The position numbers and the translations under genes are program-made. This document shows, piece after piece, positions 2,494-17,700 of a stretch of 21,347 nucleotides of DNA (positions within the stretch are counted from its first letter, which is position 1; every line of letters starts with the position of its first letter). The notes below the pieces were generated by a model that was not told the origin of the DNA, searched no databases, and was given only the letters and a program-made list of their open reading frames with translations. Source of the stretch: a bacterium Ga0077546 (GTDB taxonomy: Bacteria; Cyanobacteriota; Vampirovibrionia; Obscuribacterales; Obscuribacteraceae); NCBI GenBank assembly GCA_001464165.1, contig LNEX01000297.1:1-21347 (forward strand), given 5' to 3'.

Positions 2494-2528
2494 TCACCAG
2501 AACTAGTCACTGGTCTGCATAGAAATGG

Positions 2529-2557
2529 AAAGGGTCAAGATTCTTCTTGGCCCTTTT
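2529..2557 (+). terminator. Rho-independent terminator, possibly bidirectional
   Basis: AAAGGGTCAAGA (2529-2540) and TCTTGGCCCTTT (2545-2556) pair over 12 bp with a single G-T wobble around a TTCT loop, ending in four T. It sits 36 bases after the repeat-protein stop. The minus-strand gene at 2619 converges on it, and the A-rich 5' arm gives a short T run on that strand too, so it may serve both. Confidence 0.8.
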
Positions 2558-2618
2558 GCTAGGCGCCTCGAAAGACCTTTTCAGAATCTTCCATAGGCCA
2601 CAGCGCACAGGCTCAGTT

Positions 2619-2876
2619 TCAATCAATTTCGAAACCAGGAAGGTTTAGGATTGTTGGATGGACGTATTGACTCTGCACTCGGACAGTAAGGTCAGCACCT
2701 ACATTAGGTTTTTCGATTTCTTTCACTTTAGACAGAAAAGCCAGAGACTCAGAAGTGGTATTGCTGTTAGTCACGCACTGCAAGAGTTTTTGACTGGCTC
2801 CGTATATTTGATTATTATCTAAATTATCAGCTACCTGCTTTGCTCCGTCGTCGTTGCATTTAAAAAACTCATTCAT
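2619..2876 (-). CDS. Small hypothetical protein
   Basis: This 85-residue protein is not recognised. The start is strong: GGAGG lies 8 bases upstream of the ATG. It has no signal peptide or membrane segment and looks soluble and slightly acidic. Three Cys are present (NDD-preceding Cys7, Cys34 and none near the C-terminus beyond that pair can be assigned a motif). A hydrophobic C-terminal stretch (TILNLPGFEID) ends the protein. It lies downstream of, and in the same direction as, the citrate synthase genes, with a 137-base gap, so it may be a separate unit. Coding status rests on the ribosome-binding site and the uninterrupted frame. Confidence 0.6.
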   Translation of the reverse strand: MNEFFKCNDDGAKQVADNLDNNQIYGASQKLLQCVTNSNTTSESLAFLSKVKEIEKPNVGADLTVRVQSQYVHPTILNLPGFEID

Positions 2877-3013
2877 TTACCATCCTCCGCTAACACCATT
2901 AACTATAGGCACTCTCTGTGGCAGAGTTGTGTTGTCGAATGAGAGAAATACGAATACTAAATCAAGATATCTTTGCGCTGTTCAATAGCCGTTAACCAAA
3001 GCCAAAGCAGTCT

Positions 3014-4240
3014 CTAAAGCTTGCCAATATATTTAGCACGGGGTCTAATAATGGCACCATAAGTGCGCTGCTCAATAGCATGGGCAATCCAGCCAGCCGT
3101 GCGGCTAATGGCAAAGATGGTCGAACCAGAACCTGCTGGCAGAGCCAAAGCATACGAAATTGCGGCTAGGCCAACATCCAAATTAGGTTCTTCCGACAAC
3201 TGCTCACGTACCGCTTCTACTAATTCTAAAAGACGTTGCAAGTGTTTATTCTTGGGGGCAATACTGCTGGCAACTTCAATCATCATTCTGGCTCGAGGAT
3301 CACCGCCATCATACAATTCAGTACCAAAGCCAGGAATGCTAGGATGATTGCGCAAATAGTCTTTGAGCCAAGCTTGACTGCTCTTGTATTGCATACTATT
3401 AGTCACTATCTCTTCCGCCCTGCGACTAGCGGAACCGTGCAGAGCACCACTGAAGGTGCCAAGCGCACTAAGTAAACATGCATACAGAGAAGCATCACAC
3501 GACGCTGCTACTCTGGCTGCCAGGGCAGAAGCATTCAGTTCATGGTCGGCGCATAAGACCAAGCAGCAATTAATTGCTTTGGCTTGTTCCGGCGACGTTT
3601 TGCCAGTAAGGCCAGACAGAATAGTTTGGGCAACCGGAAAAGGACCCTCAGTGATATATTTTTGATTTTCACTGATGCCAGTGGCAATGGCCATGGTCAC
3701 TATTAGACGCCGTGAAGTGTCTAAAATTTCGCTAGATAGAAGCTGCCGACTAATTGGGTCTTGCAATTCTAGCCAAGCAACCAGCACCTTCAGCAAATCA
3801 AGAAAATTACCGTCACGTGAGCTGAGTGCTCTCAGCGGCCGAGGAATACTCAATGGTTTCGTTTGCCGCCAAGTAGACTCACTACTTACTTGTGTGTCCC
3901 ACAATAGTTCAGCGACCTTGCCAAAAGGTGTATCGGCCTGGGCCAGATCAATTGCTCGCTGTCCGCGATAGCGATGTCCGTCCTCGCGAATCTCAGTAAT
4001 TGATGACTTTACTACAGGCCCAGTCCAAACTGGTTCAGCATCTTTGGCATTCTTAAAGCCGCGAGAAGACTGTCTCAGTTTAATCAGATCACTGAGCCTG
4101 TATGAGCGCTCACGGGCATTCTCAGAAGGCATACTGACAATCAACCCACGGCTAGCATAAGCGTATAAAGTTGCCGACTTAACTCCGAGAAATTCAGCGG
4201 CCTGAGCGCCAGTCAGTAATTTATCTTCTGGTTCAGCCAT
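3014..4240 (-). CDS. HTH-domain citrate synthase homologue lacking an active-site His
   Basis: This 408-residue protein starts at MAEPEDK, 11 bp after the stop of the upstream citrate synthase. A longer frame to 4336 would run into that gene and is unlikely. Residues about 8-58 form an excisionase/MerR-type helix-turn-helix (LLTGAQAAEFLGVKSATLY, then a basic wing and SDLIKL). Residues from about 75 are citrate-synthase fold. Retained landmarks are LCADHELNAS, the first catalytic His in GALHG (His268), DPRA, the catalytic Asp in NLDVG (Asp355), SRTAGW, and the C-terminal RPRAKYIG. The second active-site His, normally GFGH before the DPRA motif, is replaced: the sequence reads GFGTELYDGGDPRA with Thr307. 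That residue contacts oxaloacetate in characterised enzymes (His305 in E. coli GltA). HTH-fused citrate synthases are a known but little-studied group. I infer reduced or lost catalysis and possible regulatory use. Confidence 0.9.
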   Translation of the reverse strand: MAEPEDKLLTGAQAAEFLGVKSATLYAYASRGLIVSMPSENARERSYRLSDLIKLRQSSRGFKNAKDAEPVWTGPVVKSSITEIREDGHRYRGQRAIDLAQADTPFGKVAELLWDTQVSSESTWRQTKPLSIPRPLRALSSRDGNFLDLLKVLVAWLELQDPISRQLLSSEILDTSRRLIVTMAIATGISENQKYITEGPFPVAQTILSGLTGKTSPEQAKAINCCLVLCADHELNASALAARVAASCDASLYACLLSALGTFSGALHGSASRRAEEIVTNSMQYKSSQAWLKDYLRNHPSIPGFGTELYDGGDPRARMMIEVASSIAPKNKHLQRLLELVEAVREQLSEEPNLDVGLAAISYALALPAGSGSTIFAISRTAGWIAHAIEQRTYGAIIRPRAKYIGKL

Positions 4241-4251
4241 AACTTCAATTC

Positions 4252-5388
4252 TCAATTCGGACTGTTCCCAATGTACCGAGAAGCTGGTCGAATTAAGCGG
4301 CCAAGAGCCCGTTGTTCGGCAATGTGCGCCAACCATCCGCCTACTCTTCCCGCCGCAAACATTGAAGAGAATGACTGATGGGGAATCTTCAGAGTATCAA
4401 GCAAGACCGCTGTATAGAATTCGACATTGGCCTTTAGCGGCTTCTCGGGATGGCGCTCGGCCAAAATGCGCTCAGCATTGCGTTCAACAGCCCGAGCCAA
4501 AAGCAGTCGCTCACTGCCAGAATGATTATGCTCTTCAAGCAAACTGATTGCCTTTTCAAAAATTGCCGCCCGGGGATCGCGCACCTGATAAATGCGGTGC
4601 CCCATAACCATAATGCGTTTGCCATGATCTAATTCATTAACCAGCCATGCTTCTGCCTTATCAGGCGAGCCAATTTCATTGAGCATCTCCAAAACCGGAC
4701 CAGGAGCGCCGCCATGAAGTGGTCCTTTTAGTGCACCAATTGCAGCGACAACGCAGCTGACATTGTCTGATTCAGTTGAGGCAACCACGCGAGCAGTAAA
4801 AGTAGAAGCATTCATGCCGTGATCAGAAACTGTTGTGAGGTAAGTATCCAGAGCGGCAATTTCTTCAGCTGTAGGCATTTTATCAGTCAGCATGCGCAAC
4901 AAATCACCAGCCTGGCTGAGGTTGGCATCTGGGGCCAGGGGCTCTAAGCCCTTTTGTACCCTTGACCAGGTAGCAGCAAAGAATCCAACAGCTGCTGCAA
5001 TCTTTATATAGGCAGCGATTGTTTTCTCAGTTCCGCCGCTGAGCAAACTTGTGGTTGTGCGCAGCACTTCCATTGGCTCACTTCTCTTAAATAAATTGAG
5101 ATTTTCTTGGGCCAATTGAAAGGCATCGCAGCGCCCCTGGTAAAAAGCTTGTTTCATCTCGGCCAGGGTCATTGTCTCCGGCACTAGCCCCTGCCATAGC
5201 AAGCTGCATGTCTCTTCAAAGGTCGAGGTGAAACCAAGAGTCTCTGCATCAACACCTTTAATGATAAGGCGTCCCAATTTTCCATCAACTTCTGAAACTA
5301 CTGTCTCAGCGACGACAACGCCGTCTAGTCCACTGTTTACTTTTTCCAATTTTGGCCTACCTAGGGTAGAAACGGTAACGCTAACCAC
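4252..5388 (-). CDS. Citrate synthase (short type; 2-methylcitrate activity not excluded)
   Basis: It condenses acetyl-CoA with oxaloacetate to form citrate, the entry step of the TCA and glyoxylate cycles, in the cytoplasm. From the GTG at 5388 it has 378 residues, normal for the short bacterial type. The frame extends to a TTG at 5433, but GGAG (5398-5401) sits 9 bases before the GTG and family proteins begin shortly before GLDGVVVAET. Catalytic landmarks are intact: SDHGMNAST, GPLHGGA (first His), MGHRIYQVRDPRA (second His and Arg), an acidic residue in NVEFYTA (Glu where many enzymes have Asp), AGRVGGW, and IRPASRYIG at the C-terminus. It leads a two-gene operon with the HTH-citrate synthase homologue and faces aceB across a regulatory gap. 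Substrate choice between acetyl-CoA and propionyl-CoA cannot be read from sequence; the aceBA context favours citrate. Confidence 0.93.
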   Translation of the reverse strand: MVSVTVSTLGRPKLEKVNSGLDGVVVAETVVSEVDGKLGRLIIKGVDAETLGFTSTFEETCSLLWQGLVPETMTLAEMKQAFYQGRCDAFQLAQENLNLFKRSEPMEVLRTTTSLLSGGTEKTIAAYIKIAAAVGFFAATWSRVQKGLEPLAPDANLSQAGDLLRMLTDKMPTAEEIAALDTYLTTVSDHGMNASTFTARVVASTESDNVSCVVAAIGALKGPLHGGAPGPVLEMLNEIGSPDKAEAWLVNELDHGKRIMVMGHRIYQVRDPRAAIFEKAISLLEEHNHSGSERLLLARAVERNAERILAERHPEKPLKANVEFYTAVLLDTLKIPHQSFSSMFAAGRVGGWLAHIAEQRALGRLIRPASRYIGNSPN

Positions 5389-5397
5389 GAACAATGT

Positions 5398-5401
5398 CTC
5401 C
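5398..5401 (-). promoter_or_regulatory. Ribosome binding site deciding the GTG start of citrate synthase
   Basis: On the minus strand GGAG is followed by nine bases and GTG (5388-5386). No ATG is available upstream in the same frame; the only alternative is a TTG at 5433 with no Shine-Dalgarno. This places the start at the GTG. Confidence 0.6.
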
Positions 5402-5429
5402 AGGTTTTTGATGTATTGACTCAACCTAT

Positions 5430-5441
5430 TCAATATATCAA
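5430..5441 (+). repeat. Operator-like element, copy A (TCAATATATCAA)
   Basis: This 12-base element is identical to copy B at 5514-5525, 84 bp away (about eight helical turns). It lies about 42-53 bases upstream of the citrate synthase GTG. It is itself a direct repeat of TCAA around TATA. A transcription-factor site is an inference. Confidence 0.5.
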
Positions 5442-5513
5442 CTCATTCGCCGAAATGATCTATTTTGTCTGCAAAAGTCGAGATTAACATATTGATGTCT
5501 TGATTTTAGTCAA

Positions 5514-5525
5514 TCAATATATCAA
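5514..5525 (+). repeat. Operator-like element, copy B (TCAATATATCAA)
   Basis: This is identical to copy A. It overlaps a tandem duplication of CAATATAT (5515-5522 and 5523-5530). It lies about 100 bases before the aceB start, where a promoter or operator would be expected. Confidence 0.5.
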
Positions 5526-5625
5526 TATATAGTCATCAGGCAATCTTTTAAGGCAAGACAGCGGAAACCCTCTGAAAGCAAAACAGTCTCGCCCCGTGCC
5601 CTCAAGACAAATGCTAGGTAAAAAA

Positions 5626-7266
5626 ATGGCCAATCAATGCAGCAGCGATAACAGCTCAATTACTAAGCAAAAGCAGCACCCAGAAGAAGAAATGAGCACA
5701 GAGCAACAGATTGACAGCGAGCGCATTCTTACAGATCGGGCCAAAGACTTCCTGCAAGCCCTACACCACGCCTTCAACCCCACCATTAAGAAACTACTAG
5801 AAGCCCGCCTTGAGCGTCAGCTTGAAATAAGCAAAGGCGCTATGCCTGACTTCCTGCCCCAAACTGCCAGTGTGCGAAGTGGCGACTGGCAAGTGGCAAC
5901 AGTTCCTGCTGACCTGAGCGATAGACGGGTTGAAATCACAGGCCCCGTAGAGCGCAAGATGATGATCAACGCCTTAAACTCTGGCGCTAAAGTGTTCATG
6001 GCCGATTTTGAAGACTCACTGGCCCCCACCTGGCAGAACATTATTGATGGCCAAATAAATTGTATAGATGCAGTACGCGGAACGCTCTCTTTCACTAGCC
6101 CCGAAGGCAAAGCCTACTCACTAAAAGAGCAAAGCGAACTGGCAACCCTAGTGGTAAGACCACGAGGATGGCACCTTACCGAAAAGCATTTTGTTGTAGA
6201 CGGCGAGTCAATTTCTGCAAGCCTCTTTGATTTTGGCCTCTACTTCTATCACAATCATAGTGAACTGGTAGAGCGAGGCACAGCTCCTTACTTCTACCTT
6301 CCAAAGCTAGAAAGTCACTTAGAAGCACGGCTCTGGAATCAAGTCTTCCACTTCGCCCAAGATCGGCTCAGTGTACCAAGAGGCACAATCAAGGCCACCG
6401 TCTTAATCGAAACTATTTTGGCCGCCTTTGAAATGGAAGAGATTCTCTATGAGCTAAGAGAACACATTGTCGCCCTCAACGCTGGCCGCTGGGATTACAT
6501 CTTCAGCATGATCAAAAAATTCAGCGATAGAGACGACCTACCCGCTCTACCTGACCGCGCCCAAGTGACTATGGCTGTGCCTTTTATGAGTGCCTACGCC
6601 AAACTACTAGTGGCCACCTGCCACAAGCGCGGCGCTCATGCCATTGGTGGCATGGCAGCATTTATACCGAGCCGCAAAGACGAAAAGATCAATGAGATCG
6701 CCTTTGCTAAAGTGCGCGAAGACAAAAATCGCGAAGCATCGTTGGGCTTCGACGGCACCTGGGTAGCTCACCCAGATCTAGTAGCTGTGGCCAAAGTCGT
6801 CTTTGACGAGACTTTAGGCACTAACGCCGACCAAAAAGAAATTCTGCATCCAGATTTCACTGTTACAGCAGCGGACCTTCTCAATACCAATATTGATGGC
6901 GGCAAAATCACTAAAGCTGGAGTTGCCGCAAACATCGACGTAGCCTTGCAATACATTGAATCTTGGTTAAGCGGTGTGGGAGCAGCGGCTATTCACAATT
7001 TGATGGAAGATGCAGCCACCGCAGAAATTTCCCGCGCCCAAATCTGGCAGTACATTCACCGTGGTGCCAAAACAGATCAAGGCGAGACAGTCACCGTAGA
7101 GCTTTACAAGGAGCTGCGGGATGAAGCCATGCAACAGCTAACAAAAGAGCAGCTAACTAAAGCAGCCGATAAACGCTTTATTGATGCCGCCAAAATTTTA
7201 GACGAACTAATTTTGACCGAGCACTTTGTCGAGTTCTTGACCATACCCGCCTACAACTACATTTAA
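5626..7266 (+). CDS. aceB: Malate synthase A
   Basis: It condenses glyoxylate with acetyl-CoA to form malate, the second step of the glyoxylate shunt. The sequence tracks E. coli AceB almost end to end: [40 protein letters not shown], the metal-site [14 protein letters not shown], the family signature around [14 protein letters not shown] (Ala where the signature has Gly), [18 protein letters not shown], and [12 protein letters not shown] with the catalytic Asp (about residue 462). The frame opens at a GTG (5596). I prefer ATG 5626, which has AGG 7 bases upstream and gives 546 residues. ATG 5692 (524 residues) is also possible because the intervening Ser/Gln/Lys-rich stretch matches nothing in the family. 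It is first in an operon with aceA, 29 bp apart. Confidence 0.95.
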
Positions 7267-7295
7267 ATCACACATATAATTTGAGGTTCAGCCCT

Positions 7296-8699
7296 ATGCA
7301 ATCTACTTCTTGCACCACACCACGCGTCAAACAAAGCTTTGCCCAACAAGTCGAAGAACTAAATCAATCATGGGCCAAAGACGCAAGATGGCGTGGCATC
7401 AAAAGAGACTATAGCGCCGCTGAAGTAGTACGCCTGCGAACCTCAATCAAAGTAAAACATACTCTTGCTAAAGTAGGCGCTGAGCGCTTCTGGCAAACAC
7501 TGAACAACGAGGCCTACACCGTAGCTCTTGGTGCCATGAACGGCTCACAAGCAGTACAAATGGTACGCGCCGGTCTCAAGTCAATTTATCTCAGTGGCTG
7601 GCAAGTAGCCGCAGACGCCAATTCTTCCAAACAAACTTATCCTGATCAAAGTCTCTATCCGTCAAATAGCGCACCTGAACTAGTGAAGCGCTTGAACAAT
7701 GCCCTTATGCGTGCTGACCAAATTGATGTAAGCGAAGGCAAGAACGATATTGATTGGTATGTGCCAATCATGGCCGATGCCGAAGCTGGCTTTGGTGGCC
7801 CAGTACACGCCTTTGAACTAATGAAGAGCATGATTGAAGCTGGCGCCAGCGGCGTTCACTTTGAAGATCAATTGGCTTCTGAGAAAAAATGCGGCCACCT
7901 AGGCGGCAAAGTTTTGGTGCCAACAGCACAGTTCATCCGCACACTAACAGCAGCCCGTCTAGCTTCTGATGTACTCGATGTGCCAACAATTATTGTTGCT
8001 CGCACCGATGCCCTCGGCGCTACTCTGATGACTTCAGATATTGATCCAGCTGATCGTCGCTTTATCAAAGGCGAACGCACCGTAGAAGGTTACTTCGAAG
8101 TAGTAGACGGCATCGAGCCAGTCATCGCTCGTGGTCTAGCTTATGCACCATATGCCGATGTGCTTTGGTATGAAACTTCTAAACCAGATCTAGAAGAAGC
8201 TAAGCAATTCGCTGAAGCCATTCACGCTCAATTCCCCGGTAAGCTTCTGGCCTACAACTGTTCACCATCGTTCAACTGGAAGAATCATCTCGATGACAAA
8301 ACCATTGCTTCATTCAACGAACAGTTGGGTGCTCTTGGTTATGTCTTCCAATTCATCACCCTTGCTGGCTGGCATGCCACCAATATGAGTGCCTTCAAAC
8401 TGGCTCACGCCTTTGCTCGCAAGGGCATGTCTGCTTATGTAGAACTGCAAGAGCAAGAATTTGCCAGCGAAGATCTGGGCTACACCGCAGTCAGACACCA
8501 AAGAGAAGTCGGCACTGGCTACTTTGACCAAGTACTGATGGCAGTATCTGGTGGCAAGGCTTCAACTGGTGCGCTGAAAGGCTCAACTGAAGAAGAGCAG
8601 TTTCAAGTGGCTGCTTCGGTCGGTGAAACTTCAGTAAATGAAGTTGTGCAGGTGAACGATATGGTAGAAGTTAGTGAACTAGCACCAGCGCTGGTTTAA
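7296..8699 (+). CDS. aceA: Isocitrate lyase
   Basis: It splits isocitrate into succinate and glyoxylate, bypassing the decarboxylating TCA steps so acetate or fatty acids can feed biosynthesis. The start is ATG 7296 with GAGG about 9 bases upstream; the frame itself opens at a TTG 15 bases earlier. The protein has 467 residues. Landmarks are [35 protein letters not shown] (metal-binding Asp/Glu), the active-site signature KKCGHL with Cys199, [17 protein letters not shown] and [11 protein letters not shown]. Family members usually end at STEEEQF plus a residue or two; here about 31 acidic residues follow, without a known motif. It is co-directional with aceB. Confidence 0.97.
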
Positions 8700-8730
8700 C
8701 ATTTAGATTTCACTCGGTCGATTCGGAAGA

Positions 8731-8770
8731 AAGCTCAGTTCAGGCAATAGTCAGGGCTGGGCTTGCTTTT
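8731..8770 (+). terminator. Possible terminator of the aceBA operon
   Basis: AAGCTCAG (8731-8738) can pair with CTGGGCTT (8757-8764) with one T-G wobble around an 18-base loop, followed by GCTTTT. The long loop and short T run make it weak, but it lies 30 bases after the aceA stop, where a terminator is expected. Confidence 0.35.
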
Positions 8771-8845
8771 ACTATTTCGAGTAACCGGAGAATCCTTCAG
8801 TTTTTTTTGCCGGTGGTAGAATGAAATTATCCAACGGAAAATCAC

Positions 8846-9166
8846 ATGTTTGTTTTAGACAAATCCATCTCACGCATTCAAATAGTTTTGCTGATGTGGC
8901 TAATCGGCTTAGCGTTAAACTTGGTAAGCCCATCTTGGTCAGCTCTGATTTATAATCCAGATCTCAGATTGATTGGGATTCTTTGCATTATTTTGCAGAT
9001 GACAGCTTCTTATGGCTTTCTACGTTTCAAGTCCACGCGACATAAAGTGATGATCTGCATGCTGTTGCTTCTTGCATTTTTGCCATTTTATTTGATACCT
9101 CAAACCTATGCCTTCTGGATCAGCTTGCACCCAACCTATTACCTCTTGGAGCTGTTCTGGCGCTAG
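8846..9166 (+). CDS. Small three-helix membrane protein
   Basis: This 106-residue protein is not recognised. Three hydrophobic segments are visible at about residues 12-32 (IVLLMWLIGLALNLV), 42-60 (LIGILCIILQMTASYGFL) and 68-90 (VMICMLLLLAFLPFYLIP). Basic residues in the loop before the third segment (RFKSTRHK) help set topology. A modest GGA lies 8 bases upstream of the ATG. It stands alone between aceA and the McrB-like pair. The strong hydrophobic periodicity makes it a likely real gene; function is unknown. Confidence 0.6.
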   Translation: MFVLDKSISRIQIVLLMWLIGLALNLVSPSWSALIYNPDLRLIGILCIILQMTASYGFLRFKSTRHKVMICMLLLLAFLPFYLIPQTYAFWISLHPTYYLLELFWR

Positions 9167-9505: not shown

Positions 9506-10447
9506 ATGGATTCCTACATAGAACCTGATTTCGAATCGATTCGCCAAGCAATAGACGCTTCTGGCGCAGTTTATAGCTCCGACCTTTTGCGGCGTTATCA
9601 TCTTTCCTTGAAAACCCGCAGGTTCGTCATTCTGTGCGGCGGAAGCGGTAGCGGTAAGACGCTGCTCACACGCATGTACTCCAACGCTGTAGATGCCCAG
9701 TACCGCCTAGTGGCGGTTGCCCCTAACTGGACGACCAACGAAGATTTATTGGGTTACTACAATCCTCTTAGCAAACAGTACTACGATACGGACTTCAGTC
9801 TTTTCCTTCGCCAAGCAGCCAGAGCCTATGAGTCCGCCATCAATGTCGGAAAAGAGCCCCAGCCGTTCCACCTTGTGCTCGATGAAATGAATTTGGCCCG
9901 CGTTGAGTACTACTTTGCCAAATTTTTGTCTGGCATGGAAGTTCTCACTAGTTTCGGCAAGGCTCAGGTGACTATGTTCGGAGCTGACATAGTCGACTTG
10001 ACTCCCAACTTATTCTTTATCGGAACTGTCAACGTCGACGAGACCACACAAGGTTTTGCCGATAAAATTTATGACCGTGCTCAAGTAATCGAAGTAACGC
10101 ACCACAGAGACGAAATTGCCTCGCGCATTGAACGGCCAGAGCTGCGTCAGGTACTAATGTCTATATGGGATGCAGTGGCAGAAGTCTCACCTTTTTCAAT
10201 CAGAATTATTGATGAAATTAATCGATACGTTGATGAAGCTGTTCGTATAGGGATGAGCTGGGAAGAAGCCGTTGACGATCAAATAATTCAAAAGATACTG
10301 CCACGAATCAAAGGCACTGATATCAGACTTGGTGTCATGCTTCAGAGAATGAATGATGTAACCGCAAACCGGTTCCCGCGGAGCCATAGTAAGATTCAGC
10401 AGCTCAATTATGGTTACCAGACTTATGGAATCGTCTCCTTCTTCTAG
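9506..10447 (+). CDS. Minimal McrB-like AAA+ ATPase
   Basis: This is a 313-residue AAA+ protein of the McrB type. Walker A is GGSGSGKT (45-52), Walker B is FHLVLDEMNLAR (Asp126-Glu127), and the sensor/signature segment is FIGTVNVDETTQGFADKIYDRAQ with Asn176 and an Arg-finger candidate Arg191. The C-terminal lid ends KILPRIKG...FPRSHSKIQQL...YGIVSFF, typical of this branch. McrB proteins usually carry an N-terminal target-recognition domain; here only about 30 residues precede the ATPase core, and an in-frame stop (9497) rules out an upstream extension. The product should form an NTP-driven ring that activates the partner nuclease. Its stop overlaps the start of that partner, indicating a tightly coupled operon. 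Two dyads upstream suggest regulation. It is probably a type IV restriction or anti-phage component. Confidence 0.85.
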   Translation: MDSYIEPDFESIRQAIDASGAVYSSDLLRRYHLSLKTRRFVILCGGSGSGKTLLTRMYSNAVDAQYRLVAVAPNWTTNEDLLGYYNPLSKQYYDTDFSLFLRQAARAYESAINVGKEPQPFHLVLDEMNLARVEYYFAKFLSGMEVLTSFGKAQVTMFGADIVDLTPNLFFIGTVNVDETTQGFADKIYDRAQVIEVTHHRDEIASRIERPELRQVLMSIWDAVAEVSPFSIRIIDEINRYVDEAVRIGMSWEEAVDDQIIQKILPRIKGTDIRLGVMLQRMNDVTANRFPRSHSKIQQLNYGYQTYGIVSFF

Positions 10448-12065
10448 GATCAGTTTCTTTGTTGAAACTGGAGCCCCCATCCATGGCCCCGTCGAAGGGC
10501 GCAAGTGTGGTGTTGCCATTGCTATTCGAAGAGAGCTATGGCCGCTCATCTCCTTGAAGTTAGATACAGAGCCACTGCCGCTTCAGTTGGAGCACGATTC
10601 AATGTGCGCTCGGGCAGAATGGCCCGCAAGCAGACCAGGCCACTACGAACTTGTTCTAGCATGCGGTGACATCCACGAGCGCCTAAATGTCAAGGTGCTA
10701 CCTCAGTATTTTAGAGAGAGTGATTTACTTGCCATCGTTCAAGATTTAGAAGAGAGGATGCCAAAGTTAATCTCATCGCAATTGCAAGAATGCGGTGGAC
10801 TAGTTGGCGAGAATCTGGTTAAGGATCAAGAACCAACCATCGAGCAAGAGTTTGTCAGATTACGTCGTGCCGTTGCTGGCACCAAAGAAAAGCTAGGTGT
10901 TCTGCAGCTTCTACCCATGATACAACGCGAATGCTATCAAGTATTGGTACCGAGGCACGAGCTGCGCAAGGCAAACCAGGCGAGAAAACCAGACATTTCA
11001 AAATTACCCATGGCTATCGCCATGCCAGGGAATATTTTTCCCAGCGGTGCGCTCAAACAAATGTATGATATGACCGTTGAACGCTCTTTCGAAACACACG
11101 AAAATCGCTTGGTGAAAGCTTACGTTCAAGCATTGCAAAGCCAGATGTCGCGACTACAAGGCAGACTAGAAGCAGAAGCAACAGCGCCGGCAATAGCGCG
11201 TGAGTTAGAGACCTTACTTAACGAGTTTCGCCTTGCCTGCACGCGAGCATCATTCTTGAGAGAAGTGAGACAGCCTTTTGTCTCGGCCGGGCGGATCACG
11301 ATGGTGCTCTTGAAGAACCCAGCCTACCGCGCGATTTTAGAAGGTTATCTTGCTCTCTACAAGCAGTCGCCGATAAGACTAGAAGAACCAGCCCTGGCTG
11401 CTCCGCTAAGTAATTTTCCCCGTCTCTATCAGCGCTGGGCTAACCTAGTTGTCATAAGTGTTTTACTGCAAGTCTGTGCTGAATTAGACTATAAATGCGT
11501 CGGTCACTCTTGGATCACGAGAGACAATTCTGGGCTTGTTATTCCACCTATGATAGAAGGAGAAGCAGGACTTAGGCTAGTCTGCCCAATCACAGAAAGA
11601 GTAGTCTGCGTTGTGCCATGGAAAACAGACAGCGGCAGAGCCACCCCTCAAAACAACGGCCCAGAACTACCACCAGCTTTAGCTATCGCCATTTACACAC
11701 CAGAGAGAACTCCGGTGGTGCTCCTGTACGATGCAAAATATCAAGTCGTTGAAGAAGACAACAACAAGCCGGTGGCTAAAAAAGCAAATTCAAAAACAAA
11801 TACGAAATTAAAAGCCATCAAGAAAGATGCCCCGGTAGTAATAAGCGGCATTGCACCAATGAAAGAAGATATCGACGAACTTCTCCACGGCATAGATCGA
11901 AGCAAAACCCCCGATGGTGGCCGCGAGATTCAATATGCAGCGATTTTGTACCCTGGTCAAAGAAAACAGATTACGGCTGAGCTTGAAGCGTTATCAGCGC
12001 GCCCGTCAGATAGAGAAAGTTTAGAACAAAGCATTTACGATGTACTCAGACTCTTCTTGGCTTAA
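10410..12065 (+). CDS. DUF2357 / PD-(D/E)XK nuclease-like partner (McrC-like)
   Basis: This 551-residue protein overlaps the AAA+ gene by 38 bases (or 23 if ATG 10425 is used; neither has a clear Shine-Dalgarno). Residues about 20-100 look like a beta-rich N-terminal domain. About 145-355 is a helical region with ETHENRLVKAYVQAL and YQRWANLVVISVLLQ, as in DUF2357 proteins. From about 380 a PD-(D/E)XK-like (PDDEXK_7/DUF524 type) core holds the motif LLYDAKYQV (Asp441, Lys443) and the trailing MKEDIDELLHGI and AAILYPGQ. A Lys-rich insert (about 452-473) interrupts it. Where these nucleases have P-D-(I/L) ahead of the DAKY strand, this protein has PPALAI (Ala423), so the first acidic residue may be lost. 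In McrBC logic it is the effector driven by the AAA+ ring; its N-terminal domain may supply target recognition. Confidence 0.8.
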   Translation: MVTRLMESSPSSRISFFVETGAPIHGPVEGRKCGVAIAIRRELWPLISLKLDTEPLPLQLEHDSMCARAEWPASRPGHYELVLACGDIHERLNVKVLPQYFRESDLLAIVQDLEERMPKLISSQLQECGGLVGENLVKDQEPTIEQEFVRLRRAVAGTKEKLGVLQLLPMIQRECYQVLVPRHELRKANQARKPDISKLPMAIAMPGNIFPSGALKQMYDMTVERSFETHENRLVKAYVQALQSQMSRLQGRLEAEATAPAIARELETLLNEFRLACTRASFLREVRQPFVSAGRITMVLLKNPAYRAILEGYLALYKQSPIRLEEPALAAPLSNFPRLYQRWANLVVISVLLQVCAELDYKCVGHSWITRDNSGLVIPPMIEGEAGLRLVCPITERVVCVVPWKTDSGRATPQNNGPELPPALAIAIYTPERTPVVLLYDAKYQVVEEDNNKPVAKKANSKTNTKLKAIKKDAPVVISGIAPMKEDIDELLHGIDRSKTPDGGREIQYAAILYPGQRKQITAELEALSARPSDRESLEQSIYDVLRLFLA

Positions 12066-15630: not shown

Positions 15631-16140
15631 TCAGTCTGGCGGCATAACATAGCTGATTGGAAAGGTCTGTCTCGACTGAAACTTTAGTGGAGTATTGCCA
15701 CCAAGAACAAACTGCAGAGCAAAGGGCTTGACCTCTACTTGTGTGGTGACAGTAACTGAGCCTGTGACTAAACCTCCCGGATTGACAAGTTCGTCGTTTT
15801 CTGAACTGCGTCGTAGTTTTGGCTGGCTAGTAATCTCGATTTTTACCGGAGGAACCAGACGAAAGTGAGATACCATACTGCTATTCATACCATTCTGGCT
15901 GTTCACTTGTTCAATGAGCAAGAGCGCTCGAGACTCGGCCTGAATGGGATTGCCGGAAGCAGATTTTCGCGCAGCGTCGCGACAAACAGAATCATTGAGA
16001 GAGACGCCATAAATTAGAAGACCCAGATCGACAAGTATAATGACAACCAAAAATAACACGACGCTTCCACAAGTGACTTCGACTAGAGAAGCCGCTGCTA
16101 TTCGTCGGCATGGCAATTTTGCTCGACTACAATTCGTCAT
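15631..16140 (-). CDS. TadE-like single-pass protein
   Basis: This 169-residue protein has a short basic N-terminus (KLPCRR), then AAASLVEVTCGSVVLFLVVIIL as membrane segment, and LGLLIYGVSLNDSVCRDAARKSASG. That is the TadE-family layout, in which a pseudopilin-like helix with a Glu is followed by a conserved Ala/Arg helix. The C-terminal ~110 residues are strand-rich and presumably extracytoplasmic. TadE-type proteins act as minor pseudopilins in Flp/Tad pili. Its ATG overlaps the stop of the upstream TadG-like gene (ATGA, 16137-16140), so the two are translationally coupled. No Tad ATPase, platform or prepilin peptidase gene is in the window. Confidence 0.7.
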   Translation of the reverse strand: MTNCSRAKLPCRRIAAASLVEVTCGSVVLFLVVIILVDLGLLIYGVSLNDSVCRDAARKSASGNPIQAESRALLLIEQVNSQNGMNSSMVSHFRLVPPVKIEITSQPKLRRSSENDELVNPGGLVTGSVTVTTQVEVKPFALQFVLGGNTPLKFQSRQTFPISYVMPPD

Positions 16141-17045
16141 TCTGATTCTGATGAGGCACCACTGCTGACACCAGTCGAAACGGCACTGAGAGTCGCGAGA
16201 TTCGATTGTTTCTTGGCCGCATCTGCCATGTCAACATCCATGTTGGACGTAATCTGAAGTGCGTCTGGAATGTCGTTAAAAGCCTCGCGGGTTTCCACTC
16301 CATTTACAAATATGCTGCCAAATGACTCGAATGCATCGAAATTGGTATTCCGCGGTGGTGCACAGGTCTTTCCTACATAGGCAGGAAGTGAGCAAAATCG
16401 GTAGGACAAATCTGAGTCGGGAGCAGGTAGCTTTGCATAGAGATTGCTCTTATAGAGTTTGCTTGGAGCGTCTACATATCCGCTTTGACGATCGAACTCG
16501 TACAATTCGGGAATGGCATCTAGCGATTCGATATTCGAATCAACATTTTTAATGCGTCCCAGAGCCACTCTAATGACCTTCGGATCACTGGTTTTTATCG
16601 AGAGAAATCCGAGACCACCATTTTCGTCTCGCTTGTTCTCATAGCTGCGTACTGCTTCTAAAACCTCTTTGCGAATAACCGAGATTTGATTATGTCGTTC
16701 TTTCTCGACCAAGGCGTGGCCAGCCCTAGCCTCTTCGAGGAGCAAATTCGATAGCCTAGAGAAGCCCGATAAGTCTTGACTGGAACTGGCATTAACTGCC
16801 TGACGTGACGTGAAGACTAATTCTCGGGAAGCTTCTTCTAAACGGTTAACCTGACCGACCCTGTCGCCAGGATTGATCCTGCTTGCTAGAGAAAGTGAGA
16901 GCGCATCAAGCGCGTACTGTGCTCTAGTGCGTTCAAGCAATACACGATTAAACATCAGACCGCCCACGGCAATGACAATTACAAGACCAATGGTGAGGCT
17001 GACAAGAAGAGTCATATTCCCACGTGATTGGCGATTACCGGTCAT
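16137..17045 (-). CDS. TadG-like membrane-anchored protein (Flp pilus-assembly N-terminal domain)
   Basis: This is a 302-residue protein whose start has AGGG 7 bases upstream of the ATG. The N-terminus RGNMTLLVSLTIGLVIVIAVGGLMFNRVLLERTRAQYALDALSLSLAS matches the Tad/TadG-like pattern of short basic segment, membrane helix and a helix with an A-x-D-A-L core. The external part contains a helical stretch (about 60-125), a central region with two Cys (FCSLPAYVGKTC) and a Ser-rich acidic end. It is shorter than full TadG proteins and shows no recognisable von Willebrand domain. It is the first gene of a two-gene minus operon with the TadE-like gene and divergent from a third such gene, only 37 bp away. 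Confidence 0.65.
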   Translation of the reverse strand: MTGNRQSRGNMTLLVSLTIGLVIVIAVGGLMFNRVLLERTRAQYALDALSLSLASRINPGDRVGQVNRLEEASRELVFTSRQAVNASSSQDLSGFSRLSNLLLEEARAGHALVEKERHNQISVIRKEVLEAVRSYENKRDENGGLGFLSIKTSDPKVIRVALGRIKNVDSNIESLDAIPELYEFDRQSGYVDAPSKLYKSNLYAKLPAPDSDLSYRFCSLPAYVGKTCAPPRNTNFDAFESFGSIFVNGVETREAFNDIPDALQITSNMDVDMADAAKKQSNLATLSAVSTGVSSGASSESE

Positions 17046-17082
17046 GTTTCTGCCCTGCTAGTGCCATGTTAGTATAAAGCCC

Positions 17083-17700
17083 ATGCATACTCACTCTAAA
17101 GTATATCACCGGCCCGCAAGAGGGCACTTTCATAGCATTAAGCTCTACCTAAGGCGAACTCAAACAGGAAGTCAAATCTCAGAGTTCGGAGTCGGGCTTA
17201 TCATTTTGATTTTGATTTTGATACCAATGCTCGACTTTGTAGTCGTACCAGTTCGCTGGATGATGGCGCAGGAAATAGTCAATAATTACGCAAGAAAGCT
17301 GGCGATGTGTGAAACTCTCAGCCAGTCATACGCGACCATGGAAGCAGATCCGTCTTTGAAGGTGCTATTACAAAATATTGGTGGTGTAGATGTAAAATCG
17401 ATAGACATGCACGTCAAAATAAGCCGCACCTCAGCACTAGAATCTGAGACCGAGTCTTATATCGTGAGCCAGCCCGGTCGCATACCAGCAGCCTGGTTAC
17501 CCAGCGCCGACAACCAGTCGCGGTTATTTTCCTTAGAATTGAGCGTGCATTCCAATATGTACCCAACTGTTCTAATGCCTGGCTTCATATTGTCTGTTCC
17601 AGGAATAACTGCCCCTATACCCATGGTGGTTACGGCCTCGCACGAATGGGGCAATCTCGGCCGCAATCCACGCACCGGCAACTATTTCATCAACGAATAA
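17083..17700 (+). CDS. TadE-like single-pass protein, second copy type
   Basis: This 205-residue protein has a basic His-rich N-terminus (about residues 1-28), then TGSQISEFGVGLIILILIL as the membrane helix with a Glu near its start, and VVVPVRWMMAQEIVNNYARKLA as the following helix, again the TadE-like layout. The remaining ~140 residues are strand-rich with a SVHSNMYP and a PGI-rich segment and are presumably outside. No convincing Shine-Dalgarno precedes the ATG, and later starts would cut the basic leader, so the start is uncertain. It is divergent from the TadG-like gene with 37 bp between starts, implying overlapping promoters. It shows little sequence similarity to the TadE-like protein at 15631-16140 beyond the N-terminal design. 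Confidence 0.7.
   Translation: MHTHSKVYHRPARGHFHSIKLYLRRTQTGSQISEFGVGLIILILILIPMLDFVVVPVRWMMAQEIVNNYARKLAMCETLSQSYATMEADPSLKVLLQNIGGVDVKSIDMHVKISRTSALESETESYIVSQPGRIPAAWLPSADNQSRLFSLELSVHSNMYPTVLMPGFILSVPGITAPIPMVVTASHEWGNLGRNPRTGNYFINE

Follow-up and report, generated by a model that had tools for sequence, protein, structure and literature searches.

A helix-turn-helix protein with a citrate-synthase fold as a predicted regulator, and an operator-like motif common to its relatives

In the contig of the Obscuribacteraceae bacterium Ga0077546 analysed here, a stretch of 21,347 nucleotides referred to as the window, the gene hthCS likely encodes a one-component regulator of the citA-hthCS operon, and probably of aceBA as well, with a sensor derived from citrate synthase that binds TTGA dyads and exerts a ligand-modulated repression. 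Sequence comparison across the wider family of such proteins (HTH-CS) supports DNA targeting well. We infer that oxaloacetate or acetyl-CoA would be the ligand, that its binding is retained and would alter DNA binding, that aceBA is among the targets, and that the effect is repression rather than activation. The initial annotation had proposed a metabolite-sensing regulator; the regulatory part of that proposal is strongly supported by a shared motif, by covariation at residue 27 of the helix-turn-helix (HTH), by two copies of the motif within 5402-5625 and by the clade-wide loss of one histidine with the binding residues kept, and the coupling to a ligand is carried forward as a proposal. What is new here is an operator-like motif common to HTH-CS genes across several phyla. 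Feature coordinates are collected in Table 1.

Table 1. Coordinates of the genes, codons and operator-like sites discussed, numbered from the first base of the window.
Feature	Coordinates	Strand	Basis
hthCS, HTH + citrate-synthase-fold protein, 408 aa, predicted regulator	3014..4240	-	ORF, Pfam, homologue alignment
HTH_17/MerR-like domain of hthCS, residues 8-54, recognition segment TLYAYASRG	4079..4219	-	Pfam
Thr307 codon, aligned with catalytic His305 of E. coli	3320..3322	-	Alignment; His in 0/85 close homologues
His268 codon (E. coli His264 column)	3437..3439	-	Alignment; kept in 83/85 close homologues
Asp355 codon (E. coli Asp362 column)	3176..3178	-	Alignment; kept in 85/85 close homologues
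citA-type citrate synthase gene, which opens the operon	4252..5388	-	Profile searches, homologue alignment, start inspection
Operator-like site 1, TTGATGTATTGACTCAACCTATTCAATATATCAA	5408..5441		Motif search; 19 bp to citA start codon
Operator-like site 2, TTGATGTCTTGATTTTAGTCAATCAATATATCAA	5492..5525		Motif search; contains the window's best matrix match (5494)
aceB, for malate synthase, running divergently to citA; its start codon is uncertain and a later ATG possible	5596..7266	+	ORF, Pfam
aceA, isocitrate lyase	7281..8699	+	ORF, Pfam

The open reading frame of hthCS is real and runs from 4240 to 3014 on the minus strand, a strand that the initial annotation had not given. Its description of an HTH at about residues 8-58 fused to a citrate-synthase body was borne out by Pfam, which places Citrate_synt at residues 75-401 (E 1.1e-60) and HTH_17 at residues 8-54 (E 4e-5; 24.2 bits, slightly below the curated cut-off of 27). 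The window protein thus has the N-terminal HTH and the Citrate_synt domain by which HTH-CS proteins are recognised here, with HTH_17 slightly under its cut-off. Among the 120 hthCS homologues listed (the best 120 of 2082), HTH_17 (PF12728) is annotated in 90, and the core of the HTH, comprising T24, Y26-Y28 and S30-G32, is invariant in 18 aligned sequences. Scores against the Pfam MerR families lie below the cut-offs (18.5 against 28.2 bits for MerR, 16.5 against 21.6 bits for MerR_1), which leaves hthCS outside the MerR family as delimited by these profiles.

In citrate synthase, by E. coli numbering, His264, His305 and Asp362 act in catalysis and His226, Arg314, Arg387 and Arg407 bind oxaloacetate. 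The oxaloacetate-binding residues are all present in hthCS, and of the catalytic three the His305 column holds Thr307; this residue, the adjacent Glu308, His268, Asp355 and the arginine motifs were all found as initially described. Scoring of the histidine column across homologues, a check proposed at the same time, separated the best 120 of the 2082 homologues sharply. Among the 85 closest, which are 48-92% identical to hthCS, Thr occupies the column 55 times, Ser 20, Met 6, Gly 2, Leu 2 and His never, and in the next 35 (38-42%, with one partial alignment at 48%) it holds His 34 times and Gln once, the division between the two sets having been placed at the identity gap from 48% to 42%; a second alignment gave identical counts. 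The replacement is thus mostly small and polar, being Thr or Ser in 75 of the 85. Elsewhere the site is conserved, with His at the His264 column in 83 of the 85 closest and all 35 wider homologues, and with the His226, Arg314, Asp362, Arg387 and Arg407 columns invariant across all 120 listed. On these counts Thr307 reflects an old substitution of a single catalytic residue, common to the whole clade, that left the substrate-binding residues in place, and the consistent absence of the histidine from the aligned sequences speaks against chance or sequencing error as its origin.

When species genomes were scanned, at least 588 HTH-CS relatives were obtained; the analysis was continued with the best 80 loci, which include no member of the window's clade (best identity 37%). 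Reading of the upstream regions of these 80 gave a motif common to HTH-CS genes of several phyla, TCAATcTTGATT-N4-6-AATCAATATAT, that is, TCAAT(c/a)TTGATT-N4-6-AATCAATATAT. In 64 of these 80 (the best 80 of at least 588) its core, TTGA-N8-10-TCAA, is found upstream of the HTH codon at a distance of no more than 350 bp, with spacings of N8 at 19 sites, N9 at 45 and N10 at 7. The N9 core is far denser upstream (1.607 per kb) than in the remainder of the loci (0.0086 per kb). Three further loci, found post hoc, have the core at a neighbouring promoter: in L015 and L051 it stands at the citA promoter, ahead of an intervening gene, and in L030 it stands ahead of tctC. The remaining 13 of the 80 are without a TTGA site even with neighbouring promoters included, and 8 of these 13 carry Thr at HTH residue 27, a group considered below. 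In the 61 loci measured, the median distance from the end of the core to the most upstream following in-frame ATG is 18 bp (quartiles 9 and 34), and in 40 of them the core lies within 30 bp of that ATG; binding at that distance would be expected to cover the core promoter.

The genes divergent from HTH-CS in the 80 loci, typed by Pfam families with the names prpB and prpC being our own reading, are citA-type in 28, prpB-like in 12, CoA-transferase III in 12, methyltransferase in 6, HMGL-like in 4, MFS in 3, TctC in 2, TauE in 2, PrpC-like in 1, Iso_dh in 1 and other in 9. Upstream copies of the motif are present in 25 of the 28 citA loci, in 3 of the 9 others, and in every prpB-like, CoA-transferase, HMGL-like, MFS, TctC, TauE and Iso_dh locus; none is found in the 6 methyltransferase loci or the sole PrpC-like locus, so that these seven, together with 3 of the 28 citA loci, are among those lacking a TTGA site. 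Because the divergent gene beside the motif can be of eight kinds (citA, prpB-like, CoA-transferase, HMGL-like, MFS, TctC, TauE and Iso_dh), HTH-CS is the common factor, and the notion of an operator that is tied to the adjacent enzyme gene and not to HTH-CS was rejected on the same ground. Twelve xanthomonad-type loci have HTH-CS and the operator divergent to a prpB-like gene (L010, L014, L035, L036, L038, L040, L049, L057, L060, L061, L063 and L069), and all but L038, that is 11 of the 12, also have a prpC-like match, so the xanthomonad-type HTH-CS is a candidate methylcitrate-cycle regulator. A comparative-genomics study of propionate regulators in Proteobacteria may have predicted the xanthomonad HTH-CS already.

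Searched for across 18 whole genomes, the pattern TCAAYNTTGAN{8,9}TCAA occurs at 43 places, against 4 for a reversed-pattern control. Thirty of the 43 were examined as loci, 13 lying at an HTH-CS gene and 17 elsewhere; among the 13 is L104, which the search itself turned up as a second HTH-CS of the Pandoraea commovens genome. In 3 of the 18 genomes, those of L078, L001 and L071, the pattern is absent. Two further places are L114, which is the L030 locus itself with its site ahead of tctC, and L113, which is without HTH-CS. Places away from HTH-CS, such as L105 (flanked by cupin and beta-lactamase-like genes) and L094, were not accepted as members of a regulon. A test set consisted of 14 plasmid-borne HTH-CS loci, mostly of different genera, some of them close to the genera of the 80 loci. 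The core is upstream in 11 of the 14, including a poorly formed copy in L128, and in none of 3 citrate synthases without an HTH that served as comparison. The plasmid locus L115 (Agrobacterium fabrum C58 plasmid At, 299436-301812) has HTH-CS and a divergent citrate synthase with one operator in common; the annotated HTH-CS start lies upstream of that operator and is probably too early.

Two of the three plasmid misses, L118 and L122, have Thr at HTH residue 27 and half-sites of TCGA. Across 94 loci (L121 was left out, as the HTH pattern was not found in it), those with Ala or Ser at residue 27 have TTGA-type sites in 74 of 83 and no site in 8, whereas those with Thr have TCGA-type sites in 10 of 10 and TTGA-type sites in 0 of 10, counts from which kinship has not been removed. 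Eight of the Thr27 loci come from the set of 80 (7 myxobacterial by title, and L006), the others being those of Acidovorax and Massilia, and the Fisher values are likewise uncorrected for kinship; moreover, the TCGA pattern is less strict than the TTGA pattern, with spacings of N8-13 accepted in GC-rich DNA. Nonetheless, a recognition-helix residue that changes together with the corresponding base of the half-site is the pattern to be expected from direct read-out. In the Thr27-type loci L001-L003, L005-L007 and L023, the first codons of HTH-CS themselves contain an operator-like stretch with TCGATTCGAC, which encodes the common peptide QSRFD. The Acidovorax HTH-CS (L118) may be a broken gene, as its annotation consists of two pieces that overlap.

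The 21,347 bases of the window contain two occurrences of TTGAN{8,10}TCAATATAT, at 5416 and 5500, against a chance mean of 0.00, and both fall within the citA-aceB intergenic region of about 200 bp. The two sites are 34-bp dyads of the form TTGA-N4-TTGA-N10-TCAA-N4-TCAA, an extended pattern derived from the window itself, and lie 84 bp apart. A TTGA-N8-10-TCAA core at its own or an adjacent promoter is thus present here, in two copies. Their N10 spacing differs from the N8-N9 that prevails in the family, and so does their left arm, which reads TGTCTTGA in the window and TCAATCTTGA in the family. When scored with a matrix trained without the window, the best match of the 21 kb is at 5494, with 14.0 bits, and site 1 reaches 4.8 at best. 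In 40 simulated 21-kb sequences the maximum averaged 7.3 (SD 2.9) and reached 16.3, exceeding the 14.0 of site 2 at least once; because of this, the window-wide score alone is only suggestive and the location bears the weight. Measured as in the family, where the quartiles are 9 and 34, the distance between site 1 and the citA start is 27 bp. Site 2, in the orientation that matches better, has its right arm toward aceBA, whereas in other loci this arm points toward HTH-CS. A scan for promoter-like matches gave three, all on the citA strand and overlapping site 2, against 0.8 expected, which is weak evidence; no such match was found on the aceB strand.

The initial annotation had placed hthCS 11 bp behind a fully equipped citrate synthase. 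The 11 bp gap is correct (4241-4251), but the description of CitA as fully equipped had to be given up, since the column of the catalytic Asp362 of E. coli GltA holds Glu in CitA. The same Glu is present in all 120 CitA homologues listed and in the 'citrate synthase 1' of PDB 2c6x ('NVEFY'); being normal for the family and found in that structure, it leaves CitA probably still an enzyme. CitA scores above the NCBIfam PRK12350 cut-off, and one of its few named homologues, P0124 from 'Candidatus Obscuribacterales bacterium', is 92% identical, in keeping with an origin of the window within or close to that order. Its start is likely the GTG at 5388, with GGAG upstream, rather than the TTG at 5433. 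A terminator-like hairpin lies at 5588-5611 on the minus strand, the strand of citA, near the aceB start, and Rfam gave no match in 2494-9000. Farther along, an AAA_5 ATPase gene and an overlapping DUF2357/PDDEXK_7-like gene (9506-12065, plus strand) are read as an McrBC-like pair, for which PADLOC matched the first gene to PDC-M26A (E 5.5e-48) and the second to PDC-M26B with an E of 0.0097 only. Three small genes at 15631-17700 include one that matches a Tad (TadE/G-like) pilus-assembly domain (E 1.4e-4) and two with no Pfam match, which are pseudopilin-like by eye only.

Catalytic residues are better kept in the wider family than in the window's clade. In the 80 loci of other lineages, for which open reading frames longer than 520 residues were trimmed to their last 430 before alignment, His305 is kept in 79, His264 in 72 and Asp362 in 70, no locus shows a change in the three Arg columns, and His226 is Asn in 3. 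Six of the 10 losses of Asp362 are to Glu, and the losses of His264 (8 of 80) and Asp362 fall mainly in a Burkholderiales branch with the states THA, THS, IHE and VHE. A tree was built from 201 HTH-CS and 24 HTH-less partners of the CitA/PrpC type, by FastTree only, with catalytic columns excluded and with some long branches. One branch with support of 100 separates the 201 HTH-CS rows from the 24 HTH-less rows, the HTH-CS thus forming a single clade apart from these partners, and the 86 rows of the window's clade form another branch, also with support of 100. Loss of any of His264, His305 and Asp362, with Asp to Glu counted as loss, affects 98 of the 201 HTH-CS rows, 86 of them in the window clade, and requires at least 5 state changes on the tree (singly, 3 for His305, 2 for His264 and 3 for Asp362). 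The Burkholderiales branch without His264 and Asp362 comprises L009, L013, L019, L030, L042, L046, L071 and L078; five of its loci (L009, L030, L042, L071 and L078) have a TctC match in the fetched stretch and three (L013, L019 and L046) a divergent MFS transporter, which hints at an HTH-CS that regulates uptake. Scans of viral contigs for close relatives of the window gene yielded none.

A mechanism may be proposed in which an HTH on each subunit of a citrate-synthase-type dimer would read TTGA half-sites, the dimer placing two HTHs on one TTGA dyad, and in which the two dyads, eight helical turns apart, would let dimers cooperate. The fold would bind oxaloacetate, acetyl-CoA (or another acyl-CoA) or citrate without efficient turnover, Thr307 serving to keep binding and to remove turnover. 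Oxaloacetate and/or acetyl-CoA, or the product, would then shift the open/closed state and so alter DNA binding. Occupancy of the sites would repress the citA-hthCS operon, as autoregulation, and probably aceBA, until a signal of acetyl-CoA/oxaloacetate relieved the repression. Given that citrate synthase and malate synthase both consume acetyl-CoA, a sensor of acetyl-CoA state makes sense between citA and aceB.

The main rival to a dedicated regulator is a trigger enzyme that still catalyses something, in which HTH-CS would be both a regulator and an active (methyl)citrate-synthase-like enzyme, with Thr307 either tolerated or changing the substrate, for example to another 2-oxoacid/acyl-CoA. 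Retention of the catalytic residues in most of the wider family (79, 72 and 70 of the 80 loci, as above) is in keeping with such an enzyme, as is the window clade itself in so far as it largely keeps His264 and Asp362 and mostly has Thr or Ser at the 307 column. Yet not one of the 85 close homologues has His there, 10 of them have Met, Gly or Leu instead, two members of the window clade are without His264 as well, and a separate citrate synthase gene is only 11 bp away; on balance we regard continued catalysis as rather improbable.

Distinctly less probable still is a regulatory subunit, that is, an HTH-CS that does not act alone and forms mixed dimers with CitA, through which the enzyme would be held at the DNA or modulated. 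An identical fold, a citA-type divergent neighbour in 28 of 80 loci and 14 pairs of HTH-CS and CitA homologues whose longest contigs are equal in length, and which are thus probably on common contigs, would all suit such a partnership, but the motif is also found at HTH-CS genes beside CoA-transferase, HMGL-like and transporter genes with no CitA/PrpC match in the fetched stretch, and in the window the two proteins share only 34% identity over 218 residues. Least credible of all is a decaying, non-functional citrate synthase paralogue with the HTH as a relic: the loss of one catalytic residue is what decay might leave, but homologues 48-92% identical with invariant Arg columns, an HTH core invariant in 18 aligned sequences and an operator motif within the same window all argue against it, and we give this explanation almost no weight. 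The reading as a dedicated, citrate-synthase-derived regulator is therefore the one retained.

More broadly, HTH-CS proteins might be regulators in multiple phyla that read the oxaloacetate/acyl-CoA state by domain closure, as an AND gate for two substrates, with catalysis repeatedly dismantled and the arginines and operator kept. Repeated loss of catalysis (of His305 in the window's Obscuribacterales-type clade, of His264 and Asp362 in one Burkholderiales branch) while the arginines and the operator stayed would then mark the passage from an enzyme family to a family of dedicated sensors, a generalisation that we offer tentatively and hold at somewhat below even chances. If it were true, HTH-CS would control genes of citrate, the glyoxylate shunt, the methylcitrate cycle, CoA transfer and tricarboxylate uptake. 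The proteins would be a ready case of the transition from enzyme to transcription factor, with catalytic residues lost repeatedly, and a sensor that arose from an enzyme of central metabolism and has a defined operator would make the gauging of acetyl-CoA/oxaloacetate supply by bacteria of several phyla directly testable. There is also a practical implication, as databases call HTH-CS proteins citrate synthases and metabolic reconstructions would consequently count a probable regulator as an enzyme.

The architecture of an HTH with a citrate-synthase domain is already in databases, under 'citrate synthase family protein' or 'citrate synthase'. A search of the open-licence literature found no report of an HTH-citrate-synthase protein as a regulator, and to our knowledge the citrate-synthase fold has not been documented in the role of an enzyme-derived one-component regulator. 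In a passage of one paper (PMC12323332), SCO5831 and SCO5832 of Streptomyces are described as putative citrate synthases with a common intergenic region and a predicted MtrA site; they may be another divergent pair. An example under the NCBI name 'citrate synthase family protein' with HTH and Citrate_synt domains is ATU_RS25370 of Agrobacterium fabrum C58 plasmid At, which belongs to the same family, has the same operator core and lies divergent to a 'citrate synthase/methylcitrate synthase'; its annotation is that of an enzyme only, unlike the regulator reading preferred here. With the citrate synthase/2-methylcitrate synthase family at large (PF00285, TIGR01800), hthCS has in common the fold and the substrate-binding Arg and His residues, whereas it adds an HTH, belongs to a clade without the catalytic His305 and scores far under the NCBIfam cut-offs. 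MerR-family regulators have a C-terminal antiparallel dimerisation helix and bind in the 19-20 bp spacer of promoters. The HTH of hthCS weakly resembles those of TipA (2vz4, E 0.06) and SoxR (2zhg, E 0.27) from that family, but it falls under the Pfam MerR cut-offs, and the sensor part, about 330 residues long, has an enzyme fold. A proposed functional likeness is to the ROK-family repressors NagC and Mlc and to trigger enzymes of the BirA type, in which an HTH is joined to an enzyme fold that senses a former or actual substrate and in some of which catalysis has been lost; their folds, those of a sugar kinase and a biotin ligase, differ from that of hthCS, so the likeness is one of function and homology is not claimed.
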